The notes below the pieces were generated by a model that saw only the letters and a list, made by a program, of their open reading frames with translations, ran no database searches and was not told the DNA's origin. 64,000 nucleotides of DNA from Ulvibacter litoralis (lineage in GTDB: Bacteria; Bacteroidota; Bacteroidia; Flavobacteriales; Flavobacteriaceae): assembly GCF_900102055.1 (NCBI RefSeq), contig NZ_FNBA01000006.1, forward strand, positions 1 through 64,000, written 5' to 3'. Within the stretch, counting starts at the first letter, position 1; each line of letters opens with the position of its first letter. Of the stretch, positions 15,187-55,523 are shown piece after piece. Made by a program: the position numbers and the translations under genes.

Positions 15187-15261
15187 AGCTATATATAAAT
15201 TTGAAAATTATTTTTTAATAGAACCTCATTTAACGAGAATACGACGATTTCTAAAGAGCCA

Positions 15262-15421
15262 ACTCACAACACCGTATCAATAATTACAGCTTTTCCATAC
15301 TAACAACATATTTAGTACCCAAAAATCACTATTTTAGGTATCGGTATATAACGAATTCCCTAGCGTTTTACGCCGTACACTTCGCCAAACGCACCAATTA
15401 ACATACAAACCCGTTACCCAA
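15262..15421 (+). repeat. attC-like site, class B (after PIN unit, before LRR unit)
   Basis: ACTCACAAC at 15262-15270 is the R''-like end and GTTACCCAAT at 15413 is the R'-like start of the next unit. The interior matches the class B consensus (gtatcaataattacagcttttccat ... tttagtac ... acaaaccc), so it belongs to the same family as the sites near 22 and 51 kb. The 5' tag expected for the upstream unit (GTTGTGAGT) was not found before 13336, where the IS3 remnant lies. Confidence 0.75.
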
Positions 15422-16357: not shown

Positions 16358-16592
16358 ATTGGGTAACAACGTATAACAATTATGGCTCTTGCGGGAATTA
16401 TTTAATATTCTCTGCAAATATTTAACTATCTTAGTTTCTGAAAAATAATGGTACGCTTGCCCTTCTAACCGGCCTTCCGGCAGGCAGGGTCTCACGCAGC
16501 TCCGAATAATTGGAAGTAAGAAGAGAATTTGATAGATGTCGTTGCTACCGTCAACACACTGCGTCAAGCGCTACAGTTAGTATACAAATTTT
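16358..16592 (+). repeat. attC-like site, class B, with damaged 3' end
   Basis: ATTGGGTAAC at 16358-16367 is the exact reverse complement of GTTACCCAAT at 15413-15422, which closes the LRR unit. The interior has the class B middle (ctcttgcgg...ctaaccggccttccggcagg...). The expected end ACAAACCCGTT is altered to acaaatttTAG near 16583-16592, so no clear tag opens the next unit and the site may be inactive on that side. Confidence 0.8.
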
Positions 16593-16599
16593 AGACATT

Positions 16600-17463
16600 T
16601 TGAAATCAGAATTGAGAATAAAAGTCATTGGAGTATTTGGAATATTTCTAATACTTATAAACGTTATTGGACTCTATTATATACATGGATATTATTCACC
16701 CTCTGGTATTATTGCTAATAATGTCTTGACATTTAATCTGTCTACAAAATGTGATTCTGTTGATAGATTAAATATTCTATATGAATCATCACGTTACAAC
16801 CTAGAAGAAAGTGTTTTTAATATTAAGTTTGATTCAACTAATTGTAAAAGCTTAAAAATGAATGTTATTGATGGCGTGGGGAGTTTAAATGATTATAGTA
16901 ATTCTGACCTAAAATCATTAGAAAGACAATTAAAAAATTTAGAAATGTATGACAATAGCAGATGGGTATATACAGGTCTTAGGTTCAATGTTAATAGTGA
17001 AATTGATAGTTACGGATCTAGTGGAATTGAAAGAATTGGATTTGCAGAATATAAATTTCACGCTAGATTATTTATAGATATACCTCACACGCAATATCCA
17101 CCCACTGTGACCTTTAATTGGGATTCCAAATATAAAGTTAATGATTTCAGTCCTAATATTCAGAAAGAACTTTCATATGGGGGAGGTAATAATTATTATA
17201 AAATAAATTCTGCAAAATTTAAGGAACGTACATTCCAAGATATAGACCCAGGCGATAAGAATAATTTAGAAGGATATTACTTCGGTTTTGAAATAACTGA
17301 CATTGAAAAAGAAAGAAAAAAAACAATGTATACAATAATATTTTCTACACTAATAGGTGTTGGTGTATCGATTTTTCTTGAGGCTATGCTTTCTGTAGAA
17401 ATTCTTCGACGATTTTCAAGCACCTTTAAAAAAACCAAACAAGAAATTGATGAAAACAACTAA
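16600..17463 (+). CDS. Unknown protein with terminal membrane segments
   Basis: The frame is open from 16510, but the first 30 codons are repeat DNA, so I use the TTG at 16600. The protein (288 residues) has an N-terminal membrane helix (VIGVFGIFLILINVIGLYYI) and a second near the C-terminus (TIIFSTLIGVGVSIFLEAML). A soluble region of about 210 residues lies between them (for example WVYTGLRFNVNSE, HARLFIDIPHTQYPPTVTFNW). Both ends would be cytoplasmic with the middle outside. No family was recognised. The unit ends with TACAGCCAAC at 17476, but its matching 5' tag is missing, perhaps through the damage at 16583. Confidence 0.6.
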   Translation: MKSELRIKVIGVFGIFLILINVIGLYYIHGYYSPSGIIANNVLTFNLSTKCDSVDRLNILYESSRYNLEESVFNIKFDSTNCKSLKMNVIDGVGSLNDYSNSDLKSLERQLKNLEMYDNSRWVYTGLRFNVNSEIDSYGSSGIERIGFAEYKFHARLFIDIPHTQYPPTVTFNWDSKYKVNDFSPNIQKELSYGGGNNYYKINSAKFKERTFQDIDPGDKNNLEGYYFGFEITDIEKERKKTMYTIIFSTLIGVGVSIFLEAMLSVEILRRFSSTFKKTKQEIDENN

Positions 17464-17624: not shown

Positions 17625-18138
17625 GAGAATAACCGCAGCATACCTACAAGAACATTATCTGATCGTATTCATTAAACTATCGATAGTTTGCTTGTTTAGC
17701 TATGCCTTGATTTCTGGAATTTCCAATGTAATAGACCATTTTAATATGGGTATCGATTCTACTGCAAATCCACTAGAGGAATACTTTTACATTGCAACAC
17801 ACTATTATTACTTGAGCGCTGCCTTCATCTTGCTACTTCCAATGGTCGGGATTTGTACGAATACTAAAGTGGGTTGGATTTTAATTCAATCCTATTTCTA
17901 CTTTTTAATTACAAATTTGGTGTTTCCGTTCACTCAGACGGAAGTAACAGATGTGTCTTTAAGTAGTTTACATAGCATCGCGTTCTTTCTCATACTTCTT
18001 AGTATCATACTAATGAATAAAAAAAGCATAAACAATCTCGTCTATGGAATTAAAAAATCGGAATTGATTCCTAAGAATACCATAGCTTCTGTAATCGGAA
18101 TTTCAATAACGATACTATTGGCTATTCTTAAAAGGTAA
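17623..18138 (+). CDS. Multi-pass membrane protein, full-length copy of a duplicated gene
   Basis: The TTG-initiated frame gives 171 residues with four predicted membrane helices (VFIKLSIVCLFSYALISGI; YYYLSAAFILLLPMVGI; WILIQSYFYFLITNLVF; LHSIAFFLILLSIILM) and a last hydrophobic end (IASVIGISITILLAIL). No family was recognised. Its last two thirds recur at 55035-55394 with about 90% base identity by eye, where the N-terminal part is missing. This copy is followed by an attC-like start at 18155, whereas the other is followed directly by a 120-bp repeat. Confidence 0.6.
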   Translation: MRITAAYLQEHYLIVFIKLSIVCLFSYALISGISNVIDHFNMGIDSTANPLEEYFYIATHYYYLSAAFILLLPMVGICTNTKVGWILIQSYFYFLITNLVFPFTQTEVTDVSLSSLHSIAFFLILLSIILMNKKSINNLVYGIKKSELIPKNTIASVIGISITILLAILKR

Positions 18139-18978: not shown

Positions 18979-19031
18979 ATAGGGGTGCAGTAAAAAAGCA
19001 CTAGTACACAGTATTTAACAGGTATCTGAAA

Positions 19032-19152
19032 ACGTTTGGTAAACACTGTAGTACTTCAAAAAAAACCGTCAATGAGTGTGCTAAAACGGGGTGTTTTCAG
19101 AAATAAAAAATCACCTACTAAGGCTATAGTTCGAAATGTTTTGAGAGAAGTG
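19032..19152 (+). repeat. 120-bp intergenic repeat, copy 1 (upstream of Crp-like gene)
   Basis: From tttggtaaac to gaagtgc this stretch repeats at 55403-55523 with few differences (shared blocks: gtgctaaaacggggtgtttt, aaggctatagttcgaaatgt). The last part, tatagttcgaaatgtttt, recurs alone at 57195-57213, upstream of an AraC gene. Each copy ends 50-80 bases before a coding sequence, so a promoter or leader role is possible. Confidence 0.6.
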
Positions 19153-22110: not shown

Positions 22111-22365
22111 TACTTACAACAACCTATCAATACTCATAGCTTTTCCATAATTACAGCTTATTTAGTACTCAAAAAGTACTATTTTAGTCTTCCAAACAGT
22201 ATGAACTAGCTTGCCTGTCTGACCGGCCTTCCGGCAGGAAGGGTCTCACACAGCTCCGAATAATTGGAACTAAACAAAGAACTCAAAAGGTGTCGCTGCT
22301 TCAAACCCTGCTTGCCGTAGGAAGGCGCCAAGCGCTATAAGTAGCATACAAACCCGTTAAGCTAC
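22111..22365 (+). repeat. attC-like site, class B, full length (before higBA)
   Basis: TACTTACAAC at 22111-22120 is followed by a complete class B interior, including ctgaccggccttccggcagg and the terminal agcgctataagtagcatacaaaccc, and then GTTAAGCTAC at 22356-22365. ATAGCTTTT near the left end can pair with AAGCGCTAT near the right end (7 of 9), and GTAT-type bases near R'' can pair with ATAC near R'. Confidence 0.82.
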
Positions 22366-22430: not shown

Positions 22431-22712
22431 ATGATATTAACCTTTGCCTCAAAAGAGACTGAACAGATTTGGAACGGAATCCGAGTTAAGAAAATGCCGA
22501 TTGAAATTCAGAATGTCGGACGTCGAAAATTGAGAATGTTGAATAATTCACAGGACATTTCTGATTTGCGAATTCCTCCTTCAAACCGACTTGAAAAACT
22601 GACTGGAAAATTGAACGAGTATTACAGCATTCGAATTAACAAACAGTGGCGGGTTATCTTTGTTTGGGAAAAAGGAAATGCAAGTGAAGTGCAAATAATT
22701 GATTATCATTAA
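22431..22712 (+). CDS. higB: HigB-family (RelE/ParE superfamily) toxin
   Basis: The 93-residue protein is of typical HigB length. It has FASKETEQIWNG near the N-terminus, the KLRMLNNSQDISDLRIPPSNRLEKLTG centre, and the C-terminal YYSIRINKQWRVIFVWEKG...VQIIDYH motif that marks the HigB/GraT type of ribosome-dependent mRNA interferase. The toxin precedes the antitoxin, as is characteristic for hig loci. HigA begins 11 bases after its stop. Its unit has complementary ends GTTAAGCTAC/GTCGCCTAAC (8 of 10). Toxin-antitoxin modules of this type are frequent cargo in superintegrons. Confidence 0.92.
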   Translation: MILTFASKETEQIWNGIRVKKMPIEIQNVGRRKLRMLNNSQDISDLRIPPSNRLEKLTGKLNEYYSIRINKQWRVIFVWEKGNASEVQIIDYH

Positions 22713-22723
22713 ACAACAATAAA

Positions 22724-23026
22724 ATGGAAAAGTTAGCAAATGTACACCCAGGAGAAATTTTATTTTATGAATTTCTTGAGCCATTGGAAATAACGGCCTA
22801 CCGACTTTCTAAAGATTTGAAAATCCCTCAAACTCGGATTTCTGAAATCATAAAAGGAAATCGCCGAATAACGGCTGACACTGCTTTACGATTAAGTAAA
22901 TATTTTGGAAACTCTGCTAAATTCTGGCTTGGAATTCAAGATGACTATGATATTGAGGAAGAAAAGGAAAATAAAGAAGCTGTATTGAACGAAATAATAA
23001 TGTACAAAGACAAAAACGTCGCCTAA
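22724..23026 (+). CDS. higA: HigA-family antitoxin
   Basis: This 100-residue XRE-type protein starts with the HigA signature VHPGEILFYEFLEPLEITAYRLSKDL, then a helix-turn-helix (IPQTRISEIIKGNRRITADTALRLSKYF) and the NSAKFWLGIQDDYDIEEEKE tail. It should neutralise HigB and repress the promoter at 22403. Its TAA stop codon (23024-23026) lies inside the R''-like tag GTCGCCTAAC at 23018-23027, so gene and cassette end coincide. Confidence 0.93.
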   Translation: MEKLANVHPGEILFYEFLEPLEITAYRLSKDLKIPQTRISEIIKGNRRITADTALRLSKYFGNSAKFWLGIQDDYDIEEEKENKEAVLNEIIMYKDKNVA

Positions 23027-25024: not shown

Positions 25025-25165
25025 AAATTACTGGCAACACCGTGTGTAATGAATGGCTAGTTCTGGCTTACTTACGAAAATCCTCGCAGATTTTCTATTC
25101 GTTTTTTATTTGCTAAATTAGGCGCTTAAACACGCCACTACTCTTATACAAACACGTTACAATAT
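25025..25165 (+). repeat. attC-like site, short class C, joined to a second partial copy
   Basis: AAATTACTGGCAAC at 25025-25038 closes the DUF4932 unit. The end is atacaaacacGTTACAATATCG at 25156. Immediately after it, 25161-25200 repeats the interior of the site at 23855-23896 (aatat.gt.ttttctaatc..taatcaaaccacaa), so the start of the next unit contains part of another site. This suggests a past fusion or deletion. Confidence 0.65.
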
Positions 25166-34500: not shown

Positions 34501-35215
34501 AGGCGTATTGTCTGTTGAAGAATCAATTGAAGATAAACTTGAGAAAGAACTTAAAGAGAAGAAAGTTTATTGGCAAAAAAGAATTAATGAAGATGAAGGG
34601 GAGAAATTAGAATTCAAGGCAACTTTTATAACACCTATTCCAACAAATGACCAAAACAGAATTATTGAAGGTTTAGAGAAACAATTGAAAAAAGCTCAAT
34701 CAGAAGAAAATATCAGTAAAATAAAATCCAAAATAGAAGAAGTTAAAGACTTAAGTAAAAATGTAAGAGGAATTGATAAAATCATTATTCATAGTGCTTT
34801 AAAAACAATATGTGCTTTTGCAAATACAAAGGGAGGTGTTTTATTGTTAGGGGTGAGTGATGATAAAAAAATATTTGGTCTTGAACAAGACTATAAATCA
34901 TTTAAAAAAGACAAAGATCGAGATGGTTTTGGTAAATTTTTCGATTCAATGATTAAAGATTATTTCGGTGATAGCTTCTCTTCTACTTTGCTAGAATACG
35001 AATTTTTAAAATTCCCAAAAGGAGATATCCTTATTGTGAAAGTTAAAAAAAGTACTGAAGAAGTCTTTTTATTAAAAAATGAAAAAGGTATTACAGAAGA
35101 AAGTATATATGTTAGAAATTTAAGTTCTTCAAACAAATTAAAAGGTGTAGAACTTTCCAAATTTATTAAAAGTAAGTACAGAGAACAAATAATGAATAAC
35201 ACTGAAATAAAATAA
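31562..35215 (+). CDS. 1217-residue protein with S1-like and C-terminal AlbA_2 (Schlafen-type) domains
   Basis: The N-terminal 320 residues hold two or three beta-rich modules of similar pattern (RALNWQDNLQKVKCKVVGYKRG and RTQNWQNQKDWSFKNINCKVIGV are internal repeats). A helical middle follows. At about 690-770 there is an S1-type RNA-binding domain (RGKIIYGIVKNVTTFDSDNIGVFISTEFGDGLIHQNEI). The C-terminus (about 1010-1200) is an AlbA_2/Schlafen domain, with LEFKATF, the motif KTICAFANTKGGVLLLGVSDDKKIFGLE, and EESIYVRNLSSSNKL. AlbA_2 domains occur in regulators and in nucleases of defence systems. A single-gene unit with perfect 10-base tags (GTTGTGCCTC/GAGGCACAAC). A role in RNA-level immunity is an inference. 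Confidence 0.78.
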   Translation: MNEICCLIKNETTVDDKSFYIIQESESKKEHLIPINQIHTFKNIKPFKKYNFLKEYNPNQNKTYLSIIHPDFKIGHERELNIIGSFEIDEKTYFELESDYEKPLTVRALNWQDNLQKVKCKVVGYKRGRPRLKNIETGNSEWNIGDIIPFTIKEFSQFTDKSDNIIDCVVLEIPNSNETIDIRTQNWQNQKDWSFKNINCKVIGVLGNGLPKLITYDTRHPHFVVGKTYDFIVTGFTDKTSYKGFNYKVINLIDKFNNSFEVLAIPNQENKIKIDETIECKIDNINTRIHLKQVNSKDPFFYEFDEIVEDESLKKKYFLKHLEKDDEYNLKLKSQYEQESGFWVFTYCNYILTKIKYEESIRRNLSEVLKIIDLHTFFENWILTSGILRAIQDDDERKLTKLKVLQIIENNSLEKKAIKAILDFKIPDLYQRQVNDTNFKEIYYLIKYSDFENINEIEFLKFLSSIKSTKNENRYIIKRLIYYINRSLEIYKNSLKQEYFILSQNLKSEQKGEIIKYVNWIYIQIYLSGLADLVVESNILISKFYRFNTLLLINKADSEKLLLNAFYIISNSTKKHNIPVVLKNNNIEITLSQLEDNPNKFIALNLDEEYFKTIIVQKHYNGFKATIGETEGFLPFQNITDINLKQNKQESLEWETNIDITLYCSKFQYFICKQLDKESQNYYSKNLKRDKKLNRGKIIYGIVKNVTTFDSDNIGVFISTEFGDGLIHQNEITYNKYGYYDLNNIFTKGDKIPLYVLGYNNENLVLGFKQLIGTRFENEYYDILNNYDIDITENLTDEEINSDFRIELEKGFIFEQFAFFKDSIDEKIKYIKFAKAFFSNTKNARSYLLNIYIEYFNSIKNLDSLTQDYTIEKYNDFRNFIIKIKDKVQTKTLENFPESKNLLFFIDILHIFNSKDENDLEIVFNLVQKSIQENDILLKAVAKTVLSNNLILTEIDKDNDDSLNEFTLKNLKRIREYINQGVLSVEESIEDKLEKELKEKKVYWQKRINEDEGEKLEFKATFITPIPTNDQNRIIEGLEKQLKKAQSEENISKIKSKIEEVKDLSKNVRGIDKIIIHSALKTICAFANTKGGVLLLGVSDDKKIFGLEQDYKSFKKDKDRDGFGKFFDSMIKDYFGDSFSSTLLEYEFLKFPKGDILIVKVKKSTEEVFLLKNEKGITEESIYVRNLSSSNKLKGVELSKFIKSKYREQIMNNTEIK

Positions 35216-35216
35216 C

Positions 35217-35478
35217 GAGGCACAACAACGCAAAATAATCATAGCTTTTCCATAACAACAGCTTACTTAGTATTTAAATTTCATTATTTTAGTCTTCTAA
35301 ACAATACGTATCGCTTGCCTTTCTAACCGGCATTCCGGCAGGTAGGGTCTCACGCAGCTCCGAATAATTGGAACTAAATAAGAAACTGAAAGGGTGTCGC
35401 CGCTTCAAACCCTGCCTACCGTAGGTAGGCGTACAAGGCGCCAAGCGCCACGATTGTTATACTTAACCGTTTCTAGTA
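35217..35478 (+). repeat. attC-like site, class B
   Basis: GAGGCACAAC at 35217-35226 starts two bases after the stop of the AlbA_2 gene. The class B interior contains a perfect 7-bp hairpin GCCTACC-gta-GGTAGGC at 35414-35430. The 3' end is atypical (cttaaccGTTTCTAG at 35469) and does not complement the end of the ParDE unit. Confidence 0.78.
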
Positions 35479-37689: not shown

Positions 37690-37949
37690 ATCGATAAGAT
37701 AAATCCTAGAGTACTGCTTTAGCAATAACAATAAACCCAGAAAGTAGTAGCGTAGGATAAAATATAGATGAAAGGGGTAGGGGTAATGAAAAGCATAAAA
37801 AATAGAACACCCTCTCAAATACGGAACCCCGTTACACAGTGTGCTAAAAACTTCCTACATTTAGAAATAAATAGAACGACTAAGACAGCTCTCCTGGAGA
37901 TTTTTGAGGAATAGGAGTACTTTTAGTTGTGATATAATACGTTACAAGC
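37678..37949 (+). repeat. attC-like site, class A, full length
   Basis: ACTGGTTACAAC (37678-37689) to GTTACAAGC (37941-37949), 272 bp. The interior is nearly identical to the copies at 29552 and 31267, with the apical hairpin TACGG-aacc-CCGTT. GTTACAAGC is the exact complement of GCTTGTAAC at 38937. Confidence 0.8.
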
Positions 37950-38924: not shown

Positions 38925-38936
38925 TAAATAAAACCA

Positions 38937-39178
38937 GCTTGTAACACCGTATACTAATCATAGCTCTTGAGGTAATTTCACAATAATTTCTACAAATAGT
39001 TAACGATATTGGTTACTGAAAAATAATGGTACGCTTGCCTTTCTGTGTCTCAAACAACTCCGAACAATTGGAACTAAATAAAGAATTGAATAGGTGTCGC
39101 CGCTTCGAGCCTTGCTTGCCGAAGAAAGACGAACAAGGCGCCAAGCGCTATAAGTAGCATACAAACCCGTTGGGCTTC
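38937..39178 (+). repeat. attC-like site, class B
   Basis: GCTTGTAAC at 38937-38945 to GTTGGGCTTC at 39169-39178. The interior is the ctcttgagg variant of class B, shared with the sites at 40771 and 42036. It has GCCTTG and CAAGGC arms around the apical region. Confidence 0.82.
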
Positions 39179-40770: not shown

Positions 40771-41016
40771 GAAAACACAACAATGTATCAATAATCATAG
40801 CTCTTGAGGTAACTAAAAGCAAATTGATTGCAAATAGTTAACGATATTGGTTTCTGAAAAATAACGGTATGCTTGCCTTTCTGTGTCTCAAACAACTCCG
40901 AACAATTGGAACTAAATAAAGAATTAAAAAGATGTCCCCGCTTCGAGCCTTGCCTGCCGAAGAAAGACGAACAAGGCGCCAAGCGCTATAAGTAGCATAC
41001 AAACCCGTTGGCAGTA
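40771..41016 (+). repeat. attC-like site, class B
   Basis: GAAAACACAAC at 40771-40781 to GTTGGCAGTA at 41007-41016. GTTGGCAGTA is the exact complement of TACTGCCAAC at 42036. The interior is almost identical to the copies at 38937 and 42036. Confidence 0.82.
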
Positions 41017-41017
41017 A

Positions 41018-41467
41018 TTAAAAACCGAACTTCTTCTTCATAAAACGTTCTATTGTTGAAGCTGTAGATATTGTAATATGGATTGATTTAAGAACACTTG
41101 AACTGACATTTCCGACAGCCCTTTCTGGGTTTTTAATTAAAAAATCAACAACAGATTGAATTGGAAATTCTCTTAATTTTGAACAATCAACAAAACTATC
41201 CTTTTCTAAAAATGGATTATTCTTTTTGTCAATCTTTAAATGGAGTGATTTTAAGTATGAATTATAAGCTTTATTAGGATTCGCTTCAGAATTAATTACA
41301 ACGTACGCAAGAGAAACCTCTTTGTCGTCTTTTGCTACTACAATTATATATTTATCATAAACTATTGTGAAATCAGGAATCTTAATTAAAATAGCATTTC
41401 CTAAATCTATATTTCTTTTAGCAAAATCATCTTTTAAATTATCTGGAAAGAAATCCCCTAAACTCAT
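41018..41467 (-). CDS. Toxin-like partner of SocA/Panacea protein
   Basis: The 149-residue protein (MSLGDFFPDNLKDDFAKRNIDLGNAILIKIPDFTIVYDKYIIVVA) is one alpha/beta domain with no signal. Its start overlaps the end of the Panacea gene by four bases (ATGA), which makes it the second gene of a two-gene operon, read on the minus strand. Proteins in this position next to Panacea antitoxins are toxins of varied families. I do not recognise this one. The unit it belongs to has perfect 10-base tags. Confidence 0.6.
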   Translation of the reverse strand: MSLGDFFPDNLKDDFAKRNIDLGNAILIKIPDFTIVYDKYIIVVAKDDKEVSLAYVVINSEANPNKAYNSYLKSLHLKIDKKNNPFLEKDSFVDCSKLREFPIQSVVDFLIKNPERAVGNVSSSVLKSIHITISTASTIERFMKKKFGF

Positions 41468-41976
41468 ATCAACTCTAAATTGTCATTGACTTTTTGTTGA
41501 CTTATAAAGTTTAATAAATTTTCATCAGCACCAACTGCTTTAGCCATATCCAAATAATCAATATTCCAACTAGCTTTATTGTATGCGTAATCGTGTGATT
41601 TATCAGTTAAAACAAGAAACTCTAAATCTTTATTTTCTATCAACGATTCATTAAGACATTCCAAATCACTTTCTGATAAAAAATCTAAATCTGGTTCTAC
41701 TAAAGATTTAACAAAATATCTATGATATTTAGCAACAACCTCTTCTAAACCCTCAATATTTTCGTCTACTACATTTTTGACAAAAGAAGGTACTGGACCA
41801 TACTTCATTTTAACGTATGTATCACCAAAAATTGGTCTACCATACTTTAAAAGATGTTTTTGGTCTGCAAAATATAAAATTTTGTAGGTCTTGTGCGTGT
41901 CAGCCTTTTCAAGATTATTTATTACAAACAAAAGACTGTTGACAGCTTTTTCTTTATGTAAATTAAAGTCTCTCAT
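41464..41976 (-). CDS. Panacea-domain (SocA-like) antitoxin
   Basis: The 170-residue protein has the Panacea-domain pattern near its start: NSLLFVINNLEKADTHKTYKILYFADQKHLLKYGRPIFGDTYVKMKYGPVPSFVKNVVDE. This corresponds to the GepA/SocA region that contacts ClpXP in Caulobacter SocA. The C-terminal half is helical (WNIDYLDMAKAVGADENLLNFI). As first gene of the operon it is probably the antitoxin. It reads against the array, which avoids read-through from upstream units. Ends GTTGGCAGTA/TACTGCCAAC. Confidence 0.8.
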   Translation of the reverse strand: MRDFNLHKEKAVNSLLFVINNLEKADTHKTYKILYFADQKHLLKYGRPIFGDTYVKMKYGPVPSFVKNVVDENIEGLEEVVAKYHRYFVKSLVEPDLDFLSESDLECLNESLIENKDLEFLVLTDKSHDYAYNKASWNIDYLDMAKAVGADENLLNFISQQKVNDNLELI

Positions 41977-42035
41977 AATATTTAGTGGTATTCATTTTAA
42001 GCCAAATGAACGTGGCAAAGTTACAAAAAAATAAC

Positions 42036-42279
42036 TACTGCCAACAATGTATCAATAATCATAGCTCTTGAGGTAACTAAAAGCAAATTGATTGCAAATA
42101 GTTAACGATATTGGTTTCTGAAAAATAATGGTACGCTTGCCTTTCTGTGTCTCAAACAAGTCCGAACAATTGGAACTAAATAAAGAATTAAAAAGGTGTC
42201 GCCGCTTCGAGCCTTGCCTGCCGAAGAAAGACGAACAAGGCGCCAAGCGCTATAAGTAGCATACAAACCTGTTGTGCGT
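42036..42279 (+). repeat. attC-like site, class B, best example
   Basis: TACTGCCAAC (42036-42045) to GTTGTGCGT (42271-42279), 244 bp. The arms pair as follows: GTATC near R'' with GCATAC near R' (four bases), ATAGCTCTT (42060-42068) with AAGCGCTAT (42244-42252, 8 of 9), and GCCTTG (42211-42216) with CAAGGC (42236-42241). The right core ends atacaaacctGTT, the class B form of the end of the site. Confidence 0.84.
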
Positions 42280-42296
42280 CATACTGAAAATGAGAC

Positions 42297-45031: not shown

Positions 45032-45277
45032 GGTTGGCAACAACGTATCAATAATCATAGCTCTTACGAAACTAGAAGCGAATTGATTGCAAATAGTTAA
45101 CGATATTGGTTTCTGAAAAATAACGCTACGCTTGCCTTTCTGTGTCTCAAACAAGTCCGAAAAATTGGAGCTAAATAAAGAATTAAAAAGATGTCCCCGC
45201 TTCAAGGTCTGCCTGTCGTAGGTAGACGCACAGGACGCTAAGCGCTACAACTATTATACAAACCCGGTGTAAGTGGT
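45032..45277 (+). repeat. attC-like site, class B, with altered core
   Basis: GGTTGGCAAC (45032-45041) to GGTGTAAGTGGT (45266-45277). The right core reads cccGGTGT instead of cccGTTGT, a single-base change in the conserved GTT, which predicts loss of recombination at this joint. The interior is class B (ctgtgtctcaaacaagtccgaaaaattgg, gtctgcctgtcgtaggtagacgc). Confidence 0.75.
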
Positions 45278-47033: not shown

Positions 47034-47296
47034 CACCAATACCTAACAACGCAAAATAATCATAGCTTTTCCATAACAACAGCTTACTTAGTATTTAAAT
47101 TTCATTATTTTAGTCTTCGAAACAATACGTATCGCTTGCCTTTCTAACCGGCATTCCGGCAGAAAGGGTCGCACGTAACTCCAAATAACCGGGCCTAAAT
47201 ATAAAAAATGTAGCCATTTCAAACCCTGCCTCCCGAAGGTAGGCACCAAGGGCATCAAGCGCTATAGGTAACATACAAACCTGTTGCCAGTAATCT
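47034..47296 (+). repeat. attC-like site, class B
   Basis: ACCACCAATACCTAAC before 47048 to GTTGCCAGTAATCT at 47283-47296. The interior is class B (ctaaccggcattccggcag, aaaccctgcctcccgaaggtaggcac). The closing arm ACCAC pairs with GTGGT at the start of the HipA-like unit, but the rest does not, in line with the altered core there. Confidence 0.7.
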
Positions 47297-48391: not shown

Positions 48392-48649
48392 ACTATTGCC
48401 AATACGGGATCAATATTCATAACTTTTCCATAATCACAGTATGTTTAGTACTTAAATTTCATTATTTTAGTCTTCGAAAAAATACGTATCGCTTGCCTTT
48501 CTAAGCAGCATTCCGGCAGGAAGGGCCTCACATAGTTTTTAATAAATGGAACTAAACAAAAAAAATGTAGCAATTTCAAACCCTGCCTTCCCTAGCTAGG
48601 CACACAGGGCACAAAGCACAATAAGTAGCATACAAACCCGTTGTGTGCA
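48392..48649 (+). repeat. attC-like site, class B
   Basis: ACTATTGCCAAT (48392-48403) to GTTGTGTGCA (48640-48649). The interior is class B. The apical part reads ccctg...cacaggg, pairing CCCTG with CAGGG. The next coding frame starts with the TTG that forms the second to fourth bases of the R' core. Confidence 0.78.
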
Positions 48650-51692: not shown

Positions 51693-51707
51693 ACGGTGAT
51701 AAAGCGA

Positions 51708-51950
51708 ACGCACAACACTCTATACGAACCATAGCTTTACCATAAGTACTTCGTGTTTAGTATTCATAAAGTACTATTTTAGGTATCGGTATAATCCGAA
51801 TTAGCTTGCCTTTTTGTGTCTCACGTGGCTCTGAATAATCGGAACTAAATAAAGAACTCAAAAAGATGTTGCCGCTTCAAGCCCTGCTTGCCGTAGGAAG
51901 GCGCACAGGGCACCAAGCGCTATAAGTAGCATACAAACCCGTTGGGAGTA
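51708..51950 (+). repeat. attC-like site, class B
   Basis: ACGCACAAC (51708-51716) to GTTGGGAGTA (51941-51950). Apical arms GCCCTG (51881-51886) and CAGGGC (51906-51911) pair completely. At the same positions the copy at 42036 has GCCTTG and CAAGGC, which is a compensated change. GTTGGGAGTA is the exact complement of TACTCCCAAC at 53321. Confidence 0.84.
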
Positions 51951-52014: not shown

Positions 52015-53316
52015 ATGTTCGAACAAGCACCAAAATATAACAAAGAAGATAAAAATACAATTCCATTAATGGTTGAACTTCAAACAAATGGAATGTTGAA
52101 AAATATTCAAGATGATTATCTTTATTGGGATAAGATAAAATACAAAACAAAAGAACATAATCCTAAAGAACTTTGGAATGCGATTAAGCTTCATAGAATA
52201 TTAAAAGCGAAACGAATTAATTTTGGTAATTACAATTTTATGTTTGTTGTTACTGACTTTATGCAAAGAGCTTTGCATCTATTTGATATGCATATTGGTG
52301 GGACATTAGGCAGTAATATTGGTATAGCTGAAACCGATAAGACAAAATATATAATAAGTTCATTAATAGAAGAATCAATTTCTAGTAGTCAAATTGAAGG
52401 AGCAAATACAACTAGAAAAAGGGCTAAAGAAATGATTCAACTTGAGAAAAAACCAAAAAACAAGTCTGAATTAATGATAATGAACAATTTCATAACTATG
52501 AAATATATAGTTCAAAACAAAGAAAAAGAATTAACAATTGAAAATATATTATATATACATAAATTAATTTCTAATGGTACTTTAGAATCAAATGATGAAG
52601 AAGGTTGTTTTAGAGAAAGTGACGATGTACATGTGGTAGATTACACAAAAGGCGAAATAGTTCATACACCACCTTTAAAAAAAGATGTTGAAAAATTAAT
52701 GGATGATCTTTGCTTATTTTTTAACAATGACACAAAAGACTTTATCCATCCTATTGTAAAAGGCTGTATAATTCATTTTATGATTGGTTGGATTCATCCT
52801 TTTACTGATGGAAATGGACGAACAGCAAGAGCATTGTTTTATTGGTATATGCTAAAGAAAGGGTATTGGCTTACTGAATACTTATCAATTTCTAGAATAA
52901 TTCAAGACACAAAAAATCAATATGAAAAAGCATATTTATATACTGAATCAGACGATAACGATTTAAGTTACTTTATTACATATCATATTAAAACAATGGA
53001 AAAAGCTTATGAAGCTTTAAAAGTATATATCAATCGAAAACAAAAAGAAGTAGTCCAAGCTGCTAAATTCATGAAAATTCCTCAAATTAATGAAAGAACT
53101 GCTCAGATACTAAAATTATTAAATGAGGATAGTGACAGAGTGTTAAATAATAAAGAAGTAGAAACAAGATTTAATATTTCAAATTTCACAGCTAGATCTG
53201 ATTTAAAATCTTTAGTAGAACTTGGTTTTTTAGACACGATACAGGTCAATAAGAAAAAAAGAAATTTTATTAAATCTGAAAACTTTGATAAAATCATTAA
53301 GAAATATAAATTATAA
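52015..53316 (+). CDS. Fic-domain protein with N-terminal inhibitory motif and C-terminal winged helix
   Basis: The 433-residue protein has a canonical Fic core HPFTDGNGRTAR with catalytic His261 and an upstream motif SSSQIEGANT, whose Glu128 matches the S/T-x-x-x-E-G/N inhibitory helix. Because this helix is in the same chain, it is a class II, self-inhibited enzyme. The C-terminal domain (about 350-433: INERTAQILKLLNEDSDRVLNNKEVETRFNISNFTARSDLKSLVELGFLD) is a winged helix, so it may bind its own promoter palindrome. The reaction is probably AMPylation of a protein. Unit tags GTTGGGAGTA/TACTCCCAAC are perfect. Confidence 0.9.
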   Translation: MFEQAPKYNKEDKNTIPLMVELQTNGMLKNIQDDYLYWDKIKYKTKEHNPKELWNAIKLHRILKAKRINFGNYNFMFVVTDFMQRALHLFDMHIGGTLGSNIGIAETDKTKYIISSLIEESISSSQIEGANTTRKRAKEMIQLEKKPKNKSELMIMNNFITMKYIVQNKEKELTIENILYIHKLISNGTLESNDEEGCFRESDDVHVVDYTKGEIVHTPPLKKDVEKLMDDLCLFFNNDTKDFIHPIVKGCIIHFMIGWIHPFTDGNGRTARALFYWYMLKKGYWLTEYLSISRIIQDTKNQYEKAYLYTESDDNDLSYFITYHIKTMEKAYEALKVYINRKQKEVVQAAKFMKIPQINERTAQILKLLNEDSDRVLNNKEVETRFNISNFTARSDLKSLVELGFLDTIQVNKKKRNFIKSENFDKIIKKYKL

Positions 53317-53320
53317 AAAC

Positions 53321-53501
53321 TACTCCCAACAATATATCAACAATCATAGCTTTTCCATAAATACAGCATGTTTAGTGCTTAAAATTCACTTTTCTAGGTG
53401 TTGGTATTATAGCCATCGCTTGCCTTTCTGACCATTCTTCCGAAGATAGGCACACAAAGCTCCAAGCGCTATAAGTAGTTATAAACCCGTTAGGCACTAT
53501 T
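53321..53501 (+). repeat. attC-like site, class B, shorter
   Basis: TACTCCCAAC (53321-53330) to GTTAGGCACTATT (53489-53501), 181 bp. The left half is class B, the middle is deleted (ctttctgaccattcttccgaagataggc), and the right end is tataaacccGTT. It shows that the site tolerates internal deletion. Confidence 0.78.
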
Positions 53502-54998: not shown

Positions 54999-55032
54999 AA
55001 TTGTGCCTAACATGGCATCAATAACAATAGCT
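54999..55032 (+). repeat. Truncated attC-like site, class B start only
   Basis: AATTGTGCCTAAC (54999-55011) closes the amidohydrolase unit. It is followed by only the first bases of class B (atggcatcaataacaatagctttca) and then joins, near 55032, the middle of the duplicated membrane gene. The array thus ends in a break, not in a complete site. Confidence 0.75.
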
Positions 55033-55034
55033 TT

Positions 55035-55394
55035 CACATTGCAACACATCATTATTACTTGAGCGCTGCTTTCATCTTATTACTTCCAATTACCGGGATT
55101 TGTACGAATACTAAAGTGGGTTGGATTTTAATTCAATCCTATTTCTGCTTTTTAATCACAAATTTGGTGTTTCCGTTCACTCAGACGGAAGTAACAGATG
55201 CGTGTTTAAGTAGTTTACATAGCATCGCGTTCTTCCTCATACTTCTATTTATCATATTAATGAATAAAAAGAGCATAAGCAATCTCGTGTATGGAATTAA
55301 AAAATCGGAATTAATTCCTAAGAACACCATAGCTTCTGTAATCGGAATTTCAATAACGATCCTTTTGGCTATTCTTAAAAGGGAAGGAATCTAA
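55035..55394 (+). pseudogene. Truncated copy of the membrane protein gene at 17623
   Basis: From ttgcaacacatcattattactt on, the sequence follows 17799-18138 with few changes (TNTKVGWILIQSYF, FLITNLVFPFTQTEVTD, SELIPKNTIASVIGISITILLAIL are kept). The first 59 codons and the promoter of the full copy are missing, so this is a 5'-truncated remnant. An internal TTG could start a 111-residue frame, but it would lack the first helix. Confidence 0.8.
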
Positions 55395-55402
55395 AAAAAA
55401 AC

Positions 55403-55523
55403 CTTTGGTAAACAGCGGAGTACTTCAGAAAAAACCGTCAATGAATGTGCTAAAACGGGGTGTTTTCAGAAATAAAAAAAGCTCCTAGTAAGGCTATAGT
55501 TCGAAATGTTTTAAAGGAAGTGC
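55403..55523 (+). repeat. 120-bp intergenic repeat, copy 2
   Basis: It corresponds to 19032-19152. Here it directly follows the truncated membrane gene, whereas in copy 1 the membrane gene and the repeat are separated by about 890 bases containing an attC-like half-site and the outer-membrane pseudogene. It lies about 77 bases before the CrtA-like gene. Confidence 0.65.

Follow-up and report, generated by a model that had tools for sequence, protein, structure and literature searches.

The window, a stretch of 64,000 nt from Ulvibacter litoralis, holds an array of cassettes and attC-like repeats (Table 1). Most of the repeats belong to a long size class, class B, and a second, shorter class is called class A. 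The class B site studied here closes a cassette that contains a Panacea (SocA-like) antitoxin gene at 41467–41976. Other cargo includes a HigB-like toxin gene with an HTH antitoxin gene, in the cassette at 22431–23023, and a Fic gene at 52015–53313. A roughly 19-nt apical hairpin insert is present in several class B sites of the window; it was considered as a dispersed repeat and rejected, as all six exact matches in the genome lie inside the array of the window. Two pairs of stretches, 17784–18083 with 55031–55330 and 19029–19110 with 55398–55479, are 92–93% identical at a distance of 37 kb, which suggests that they may be duplicated cassette segments within the array. A scan of the window against Rfam and for tRNAs found nothing, with no Rfam family at gathering score.

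Table 1. Sites, tags and arms of the attC-like array in the window
Feature	Position	Strand	Remark
Shorter site, same array	15261–15421	+	
Class B-like site	16358–16600	+	R'' intact (10-nt tag match to 15413), R' box decayed
Class B-like site	22116–22364	+	
Class A site	25036–25158	+	about 123 bp; E 1.3e-16
Class B-like site, the longest	35205–35477	+	contains perfect hairpin 35414–35430
Class B site	38936–39177	+	R'' matches cassette start at 37941
Class B site	40772–41015	+	near-identical to copy 42036–42279
Cassette ending in class B site 42036–42279	41007–42270	+	10-nt match, cassette start to R''
Start tag of that cassette, GTTGGCAGTA	41007–41016	+	pairs with R''
Class B attC-like site studied here, R'' to R'	42036–42279	+	
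R'', TACTGCCAAC	42036–42045	+	
L'' arm, GTAT...ATAGCTCTT	42049–42069	+	
Apical arm, GCCTTG...CAAGGC	42211–42241	+	no significant support for pairing
L' arm, AAGCGCTAT...ATAC	42245–42264	+	
R', GTTGTGCGTC	42271–42280	+	start tag of next cassette
Class B site	45032–45274	+	R' box GGT in place of GTT
Class B-like site	47040–47291	+	
Class B-like site	48400–48648	+	
Class B site with GCCCTG/CAGGGC	51705–51949	+	tag match to 50273
Class B site, shortened	53321–53497	+	10-nt tag match to 51941

The paired segments that the earlier note had described within the site at 42036–42279 are present. GTAT near R'' (42049–42052) pairs with ATAC near R' (42261–42264), and ATAGCTCTT at 42061–42069 pairs with AAGCGCTAT at 42245–42253 with one mismatch. 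The apical arm reads GCCTTG (42211–42216) and CAAGGC (42236–42241) in this copy and GCCCTG/CAGGGC at 51881/51906, and the perfect GCCTACC-GTA-GGTAGGC hairpin is found at 35414–35430. The apical difference had been read as a compensated base change. The change on both sides is real, but alone it represents one event and is not significant. It is the only apical pair changed on both sides in an alignment of 12 window sites, and the GCCTTG/CAAGGC form counts as one event because the three copies that carry it are near-identical. The number of two-sided apical pairs in these 12 sites was matched by 70 of 500 shuffles. The apical arm is broken in several copies, and others have ACCCTG or GGTCTG with imperfect partners. 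Covariation of the proposed nested apical hairpins is not significant.

The earlier note had also named folding energy against shuffled sequence as a check, and here its own test fails for the linear chromosomal copy: positions 42033–42282, folded as DNA, give z values of −0.03 for the bottom strand and −0.60 for the top strand. The linear copy folds poorly because the partner of R'' is the start of its own cassette and not the adjacent R', a relationship that the note had missed. R'' at 42036–42045 (TACTGCCAAC) is perfectly complementary to 41007–41016 (GTTGGCAGTA), where its own cassette starts, and is not the complement of the neighbouring R' at 42271 (GTTGTGCGTC). With the cassette start and R'' brought together as they would be in an excised circle, the same copy gives z values of −2.63 for the bottom strand and −2.91 for the top strand, and the bottom strand is not the more stable of the two in this form. 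The rule was tested on 59 cassettes of the window's genome, with sites picked by motif only. Over seven free positions, the identity of R'' was 6.20 with its own cassette start, 2.49 with the adjacent R' and 2.50 with a random cassette (n = 59). Excision and insertion of cassettes as circles via a G^TT crossover would lead to such a tag rule. For the cassette at 41007–42270, the crossover points would be expected at the G^TT of 41007 and 42271.

At least 40 class B-like matches occur in the window's genome, on approximately 15 contigs. The distance from AAC to GTT is 206–208 bp in approximately 40 tag-matched class B sites outside the window and 205–208 bp in those of the congener G064; the class B members of the window are longer and more variable than the very uniform ones elsewhere in the genome. 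Class A sites measure 118–126 bp and are common in relatives (93 sites, 17 loci), and other lineages have long types of their own (L053, 208–229 bp). The published length of attC sites is 57–142 nt (PMC2727003). At about 228 nt with tags, class B lies beyond this range, as the note had pointed out, and class A, at about 140 nt, falls inside it. Some 91 R'-like motifs are spread over 161 kb of examined contigs, and the contigs that carry them, including contig C16 and the window, presumably form one array. The window begins at a contig edge, and several contigs of the window's genome are small and full of array sites (C9, C10, C11, C14, C17, C26 and C28, and likewise C31, C36, C37, C39, C40, C41 and C47); the array seems to have broken the genome assembly.

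Covariation was assessed over approximately 150 sites from the genome and its relatives. The test was our own construction, modelled on R-scape but not R-scape itself: along a tree, changes were re-simulated independently for each column, and pairs were scored by a G statistic with average-product correction. Class A gave 11 significant pairs, and the consensus hairpin contains all of them: five belong to the L stem, where the site finder demanded no pairing, and the other six are tag pairs, a condition of the site finder itself. For class B alone the tag pairs were the only significant ones, as the small number of independent changes would lead one to expect, and none lay in the apical part; tag covariation is in part ascertained, since the site finder selects on tags. 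When the tags were excluded, the arms of 138 unique sites gave four significant cross-arm pairs in one register (E from 9e-6 to 0.03), and two further weak pairs each lie within one arm. Pairing of the basal arms is beyond chance in this wider set, under a tree-aware null, and the claim that the repeats are selected for hairpin structure is supported by it.

Without tags, bottom-strand pairing of the arms is the more stable in each of 40 class B sites and in 39 of 40 class A sites (79 of 80 in all). In arm alignments that scored Watson-Crick matches only, the ratio of bottom to top G.T wobbles is 152:17 for class B and 251:59 for class A. A wobble count from fold-derived pairs leans toward the folded strand, and the fold-independent count agrees with it; the bias is kept even with pairs from the top-strand fold (31:1 for class B, 49:9 for class A). 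One position carries a conserved G.T wobble, seen in 47 of the 48 class B sites and in 73 of the 93 class A sites. The R and L stems are separated by an asymmetric spacer without pairing, which measures about 6 nt on its R' side and 3 on its R'' side. As computed, the sites fold like attC sites, from the bottom strand and with a central spacer left unpaired. A search of the R''-L'' arm for the extrahelical bases characteristic of attC, which the note had suggested, found no conserved one: bulges there occur in 9 of 48 class B sites at scattered positions, and class A bulges are likewise scattered.

A search of the window for an array-linked recombinase found none, and the other tyrosine recombinases of the genome are located elsewhere. 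A gene for a 408-residue tyrosine recombinase is situated close to the end of contig C16. Its stop codon is followed after 33 bp by TATAACAA directly joined to GTTGTACCC, and then by two cassettes that share the orientation of the gene. An attI-like TATAAC-N-A immediately before GTT, together with a tag match of the first cassette, lies behind the recombinase gene in about ten loci, mostly at 27–42 bp, and the stretches behind the gene carry arrays in many cases. A candidate attI site appears to adjoin the recombinase gene, as in integrons. Orthologues of the C16 recombinase occur across the family at about 45–68% identity, including Mesonia, Zunongwangia and Lutibacter (Flavobacteriaceae), with invariant catalytic residues.

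The linked recombinase, which had escaped the earlier note, is not an IntI. It scores 201 bits against TIGR02249 (IntI), below the cut-off of 265. The best profile is XerA NF040815 (208 bits, cut-off 220), and the XerC and XerD scores are 180 and 176, with cut-offs of 335 and 330. The distance from the catalytic K to HxLR is 65 residues, compared with 107–109 in 13 IntI and about 72 in Xer, and the aligned I2 region comprises 65 residues in IntI4 and 22 in the C16 recombinase. The AlphaFold model contains an extra N-terminal domain (residues 1–77, mostly of high confidence); in the I2 region it shows no additional helix. Among solved structures, XerA (5hxy) and IntI4 have the most similar folds, and a C-terminal SPLD motif is common to the recombinase family and IntI. 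In a tree rooted by midpoint, the recombinase family, IntI and some Bacteroidota enzymes group apart from most Xer (100/99); IntI and the recombinase family are each monophyletic (100/100), and the C16 enzyme falls outside the IntI clade. Since the enzyme lacks the I2 helix and the sites lack a conserved extrahelical base, use of single strands by the known mechanism is not expected.

At the sequence level the tag rule, the covarying arms and the bias toward the bottom strand are apparent, as is the linkage of the recombinase with an attI-like site and the array, and the description of the repeats as attC-like is upheld. We consider it highly probable that the class B repeats serve as attC-like recombination sites in an integron-like array of the chromosome, in which the C16-type recombinase would join the folded bottom strand. 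A cassette would be excised by crossover at the G^TT of two R' boxes, so that in the circle its 5' tag (TTNNNNNNN) would meet its own R''. The bottom strand would fold into an R stem of about 10 bp, the asymmetric spacer, a long L stem, in which G.T wobbles are conserved, and a variable apex. The tyrosine recombinase encoded just ahead of the first cassette would act on this folded strand and join it either to another attC-like site or to the attI-like TATAAC-N-A, followed by GTTG, that lies behind the recombinase gene. Recombination of the cassettes presumably does take place, and the enzyme encoded on C16 probably performs it, on single strands.

An integron-like array could also be served by an Xer-like recombinase acting on double-stranded sites, with the arms as inverted binding sites. 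L and R boxes in inverted orientation would also be suitable for a dimer bound to duplex DNA, and the enzyme has no I2 helix and is closest to XerA by profile and fold, but we regard this reading as improbable: wobbles and energies are both biased toward one folded strand, covariation that preserves pairing is not needed for duplex binding sites, and a spacer with unequal sides does not resemble a symmetric core site. Simple divergence of the integrase and attC sites of a standard IntI chromosomal integron is largely refuted and appears very improbable. The recombinase's score of 201 bits lies below 265, I2 is absent (65 residues from K to HxLR, against 107–109), IntI forms a separate clade with 100/100 support, no extrahelical base is conserved and the recombinase gene is colinear with the array, even though the TIGR02249 match, the shared SPLD motif and the joining of IntI with the recombinase family apart from most Xer would all fit such an origin. 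A MITE-like or REP-like hairpin element, or RNA hairpins or terminators, without site-specific recombination is scarcely credible despite the high copy number, palindromic arms and modular internal segments, because the tag rule already contradicts it (such elements would not match the distant start of their own cassette in place of the neighbour, and an artefact of site choice is unlikely given the motif-only test), and the directional array behind a recombinase, the lack of an Rfam family at gathering score and wobbles that fit the strand opposite to the array direction also speak against it.

Read as an integron-like array with attC-like sites, the system shares with sedentary chromosomal integrons, such as the Vibrio cholerae superintegron, a recombinase gene, an attI-like site and a directional cassette array. 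The R''/R' tag rule with a GTT core, the unpaired R/L spacer, the bottom-strand fold and the variable apical part are likewise shared, as are toxin-antitoxin cassettes, here with HigBA-like and Panacea-antitoxin cargo. In contrast to these integrons, the enzyme is not IntI (no I2, scores below cut-off, a separate clade and an extra N-terminal domain), the R stem is longer (about 10 nt) with no conserved extrahelical base, class B sites exceed 57–142 nt and the recombinase gene is oriented the same way as the cassettes. With XerA, XerC and XerD the enzyme has in common that XerA is its best profile and closest structure (5hxy) and that there is no I2 insertion; it is set apart from them by the extra N-terminal domain of about 77 residues, an SPLD-type C terminus, the grouping with IntI and Bacteroidota relatives in the tree and the linkage to a cassette array. 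As far as can be judged from sequence, the system behaves as an integron, yet it departs from IntI integrons in profile score, I2, clade, extrahelical bases and, for class B, site length.

In the IntegronFinder 2.0 survey, one complete integron is reported for Bacteroidetes proper, in Salinibacter ruber (PMC9024848). We found no described Bacteroidota integron-like system with a non-IntI enzyme in the literature searched; a recent report is possible, with preprints and most subscription papers outside the search. There is about an even chance that the array represents a second kind of integron, widespread in Flavobacteriaceae, which would use folded single strands through a recombinase that lacked I2 from the start or can do without it, with the strand chosen by the asymmetric spacer and the G.T wobbles. 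If so, it would be a lineage that split from IntI before the gain of I2, or an independent invention. The use of folded single strands by integron integrases is credited to one innovation, the I2 helix (PMC7790495), and the tag rule together with bottom-strand hairpins, in a system that has neither I2 nor a conserved extrahelical base, makes this idea testable. A common bacterial family would also carry large cassette arrays that current surveys have missed.

Among the matches listed, 133 of 151 genomes of the family, which we call Flavobacteriaceae from its named relatives, have sites by the class A model, and, again among the matches listed, so do 54 of 198 genomes across the phylum. Six genomes (G019, G060, G067, G072, G037 and G098) have at least 12 sites each and recombinase matches that are Xer-like only; such site-rich genomes without the family recombinase may hold relic arrays, or another enzyme may be active in them. 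In two Bacteroidota outside the family (G434, contig C33; G442, contig C44), shorter recombinases of a second group share a contig with class A-like sites that lie no more than about 20 kb away on the other strand. Apparent in-frame stops in these array-linked second-tier genes were rejected: in both, the profile match runs past the terminal stop. Whole class B sites are restricted to the genus. Three class A sites of the window's genome (L193:7538–7661, L196:1685–1808 and L200:2327–2449) closely resemble sites in other genera (e.g. L061, L066 and L076), and class A sites of this kind could possibly be incoming cassettes.
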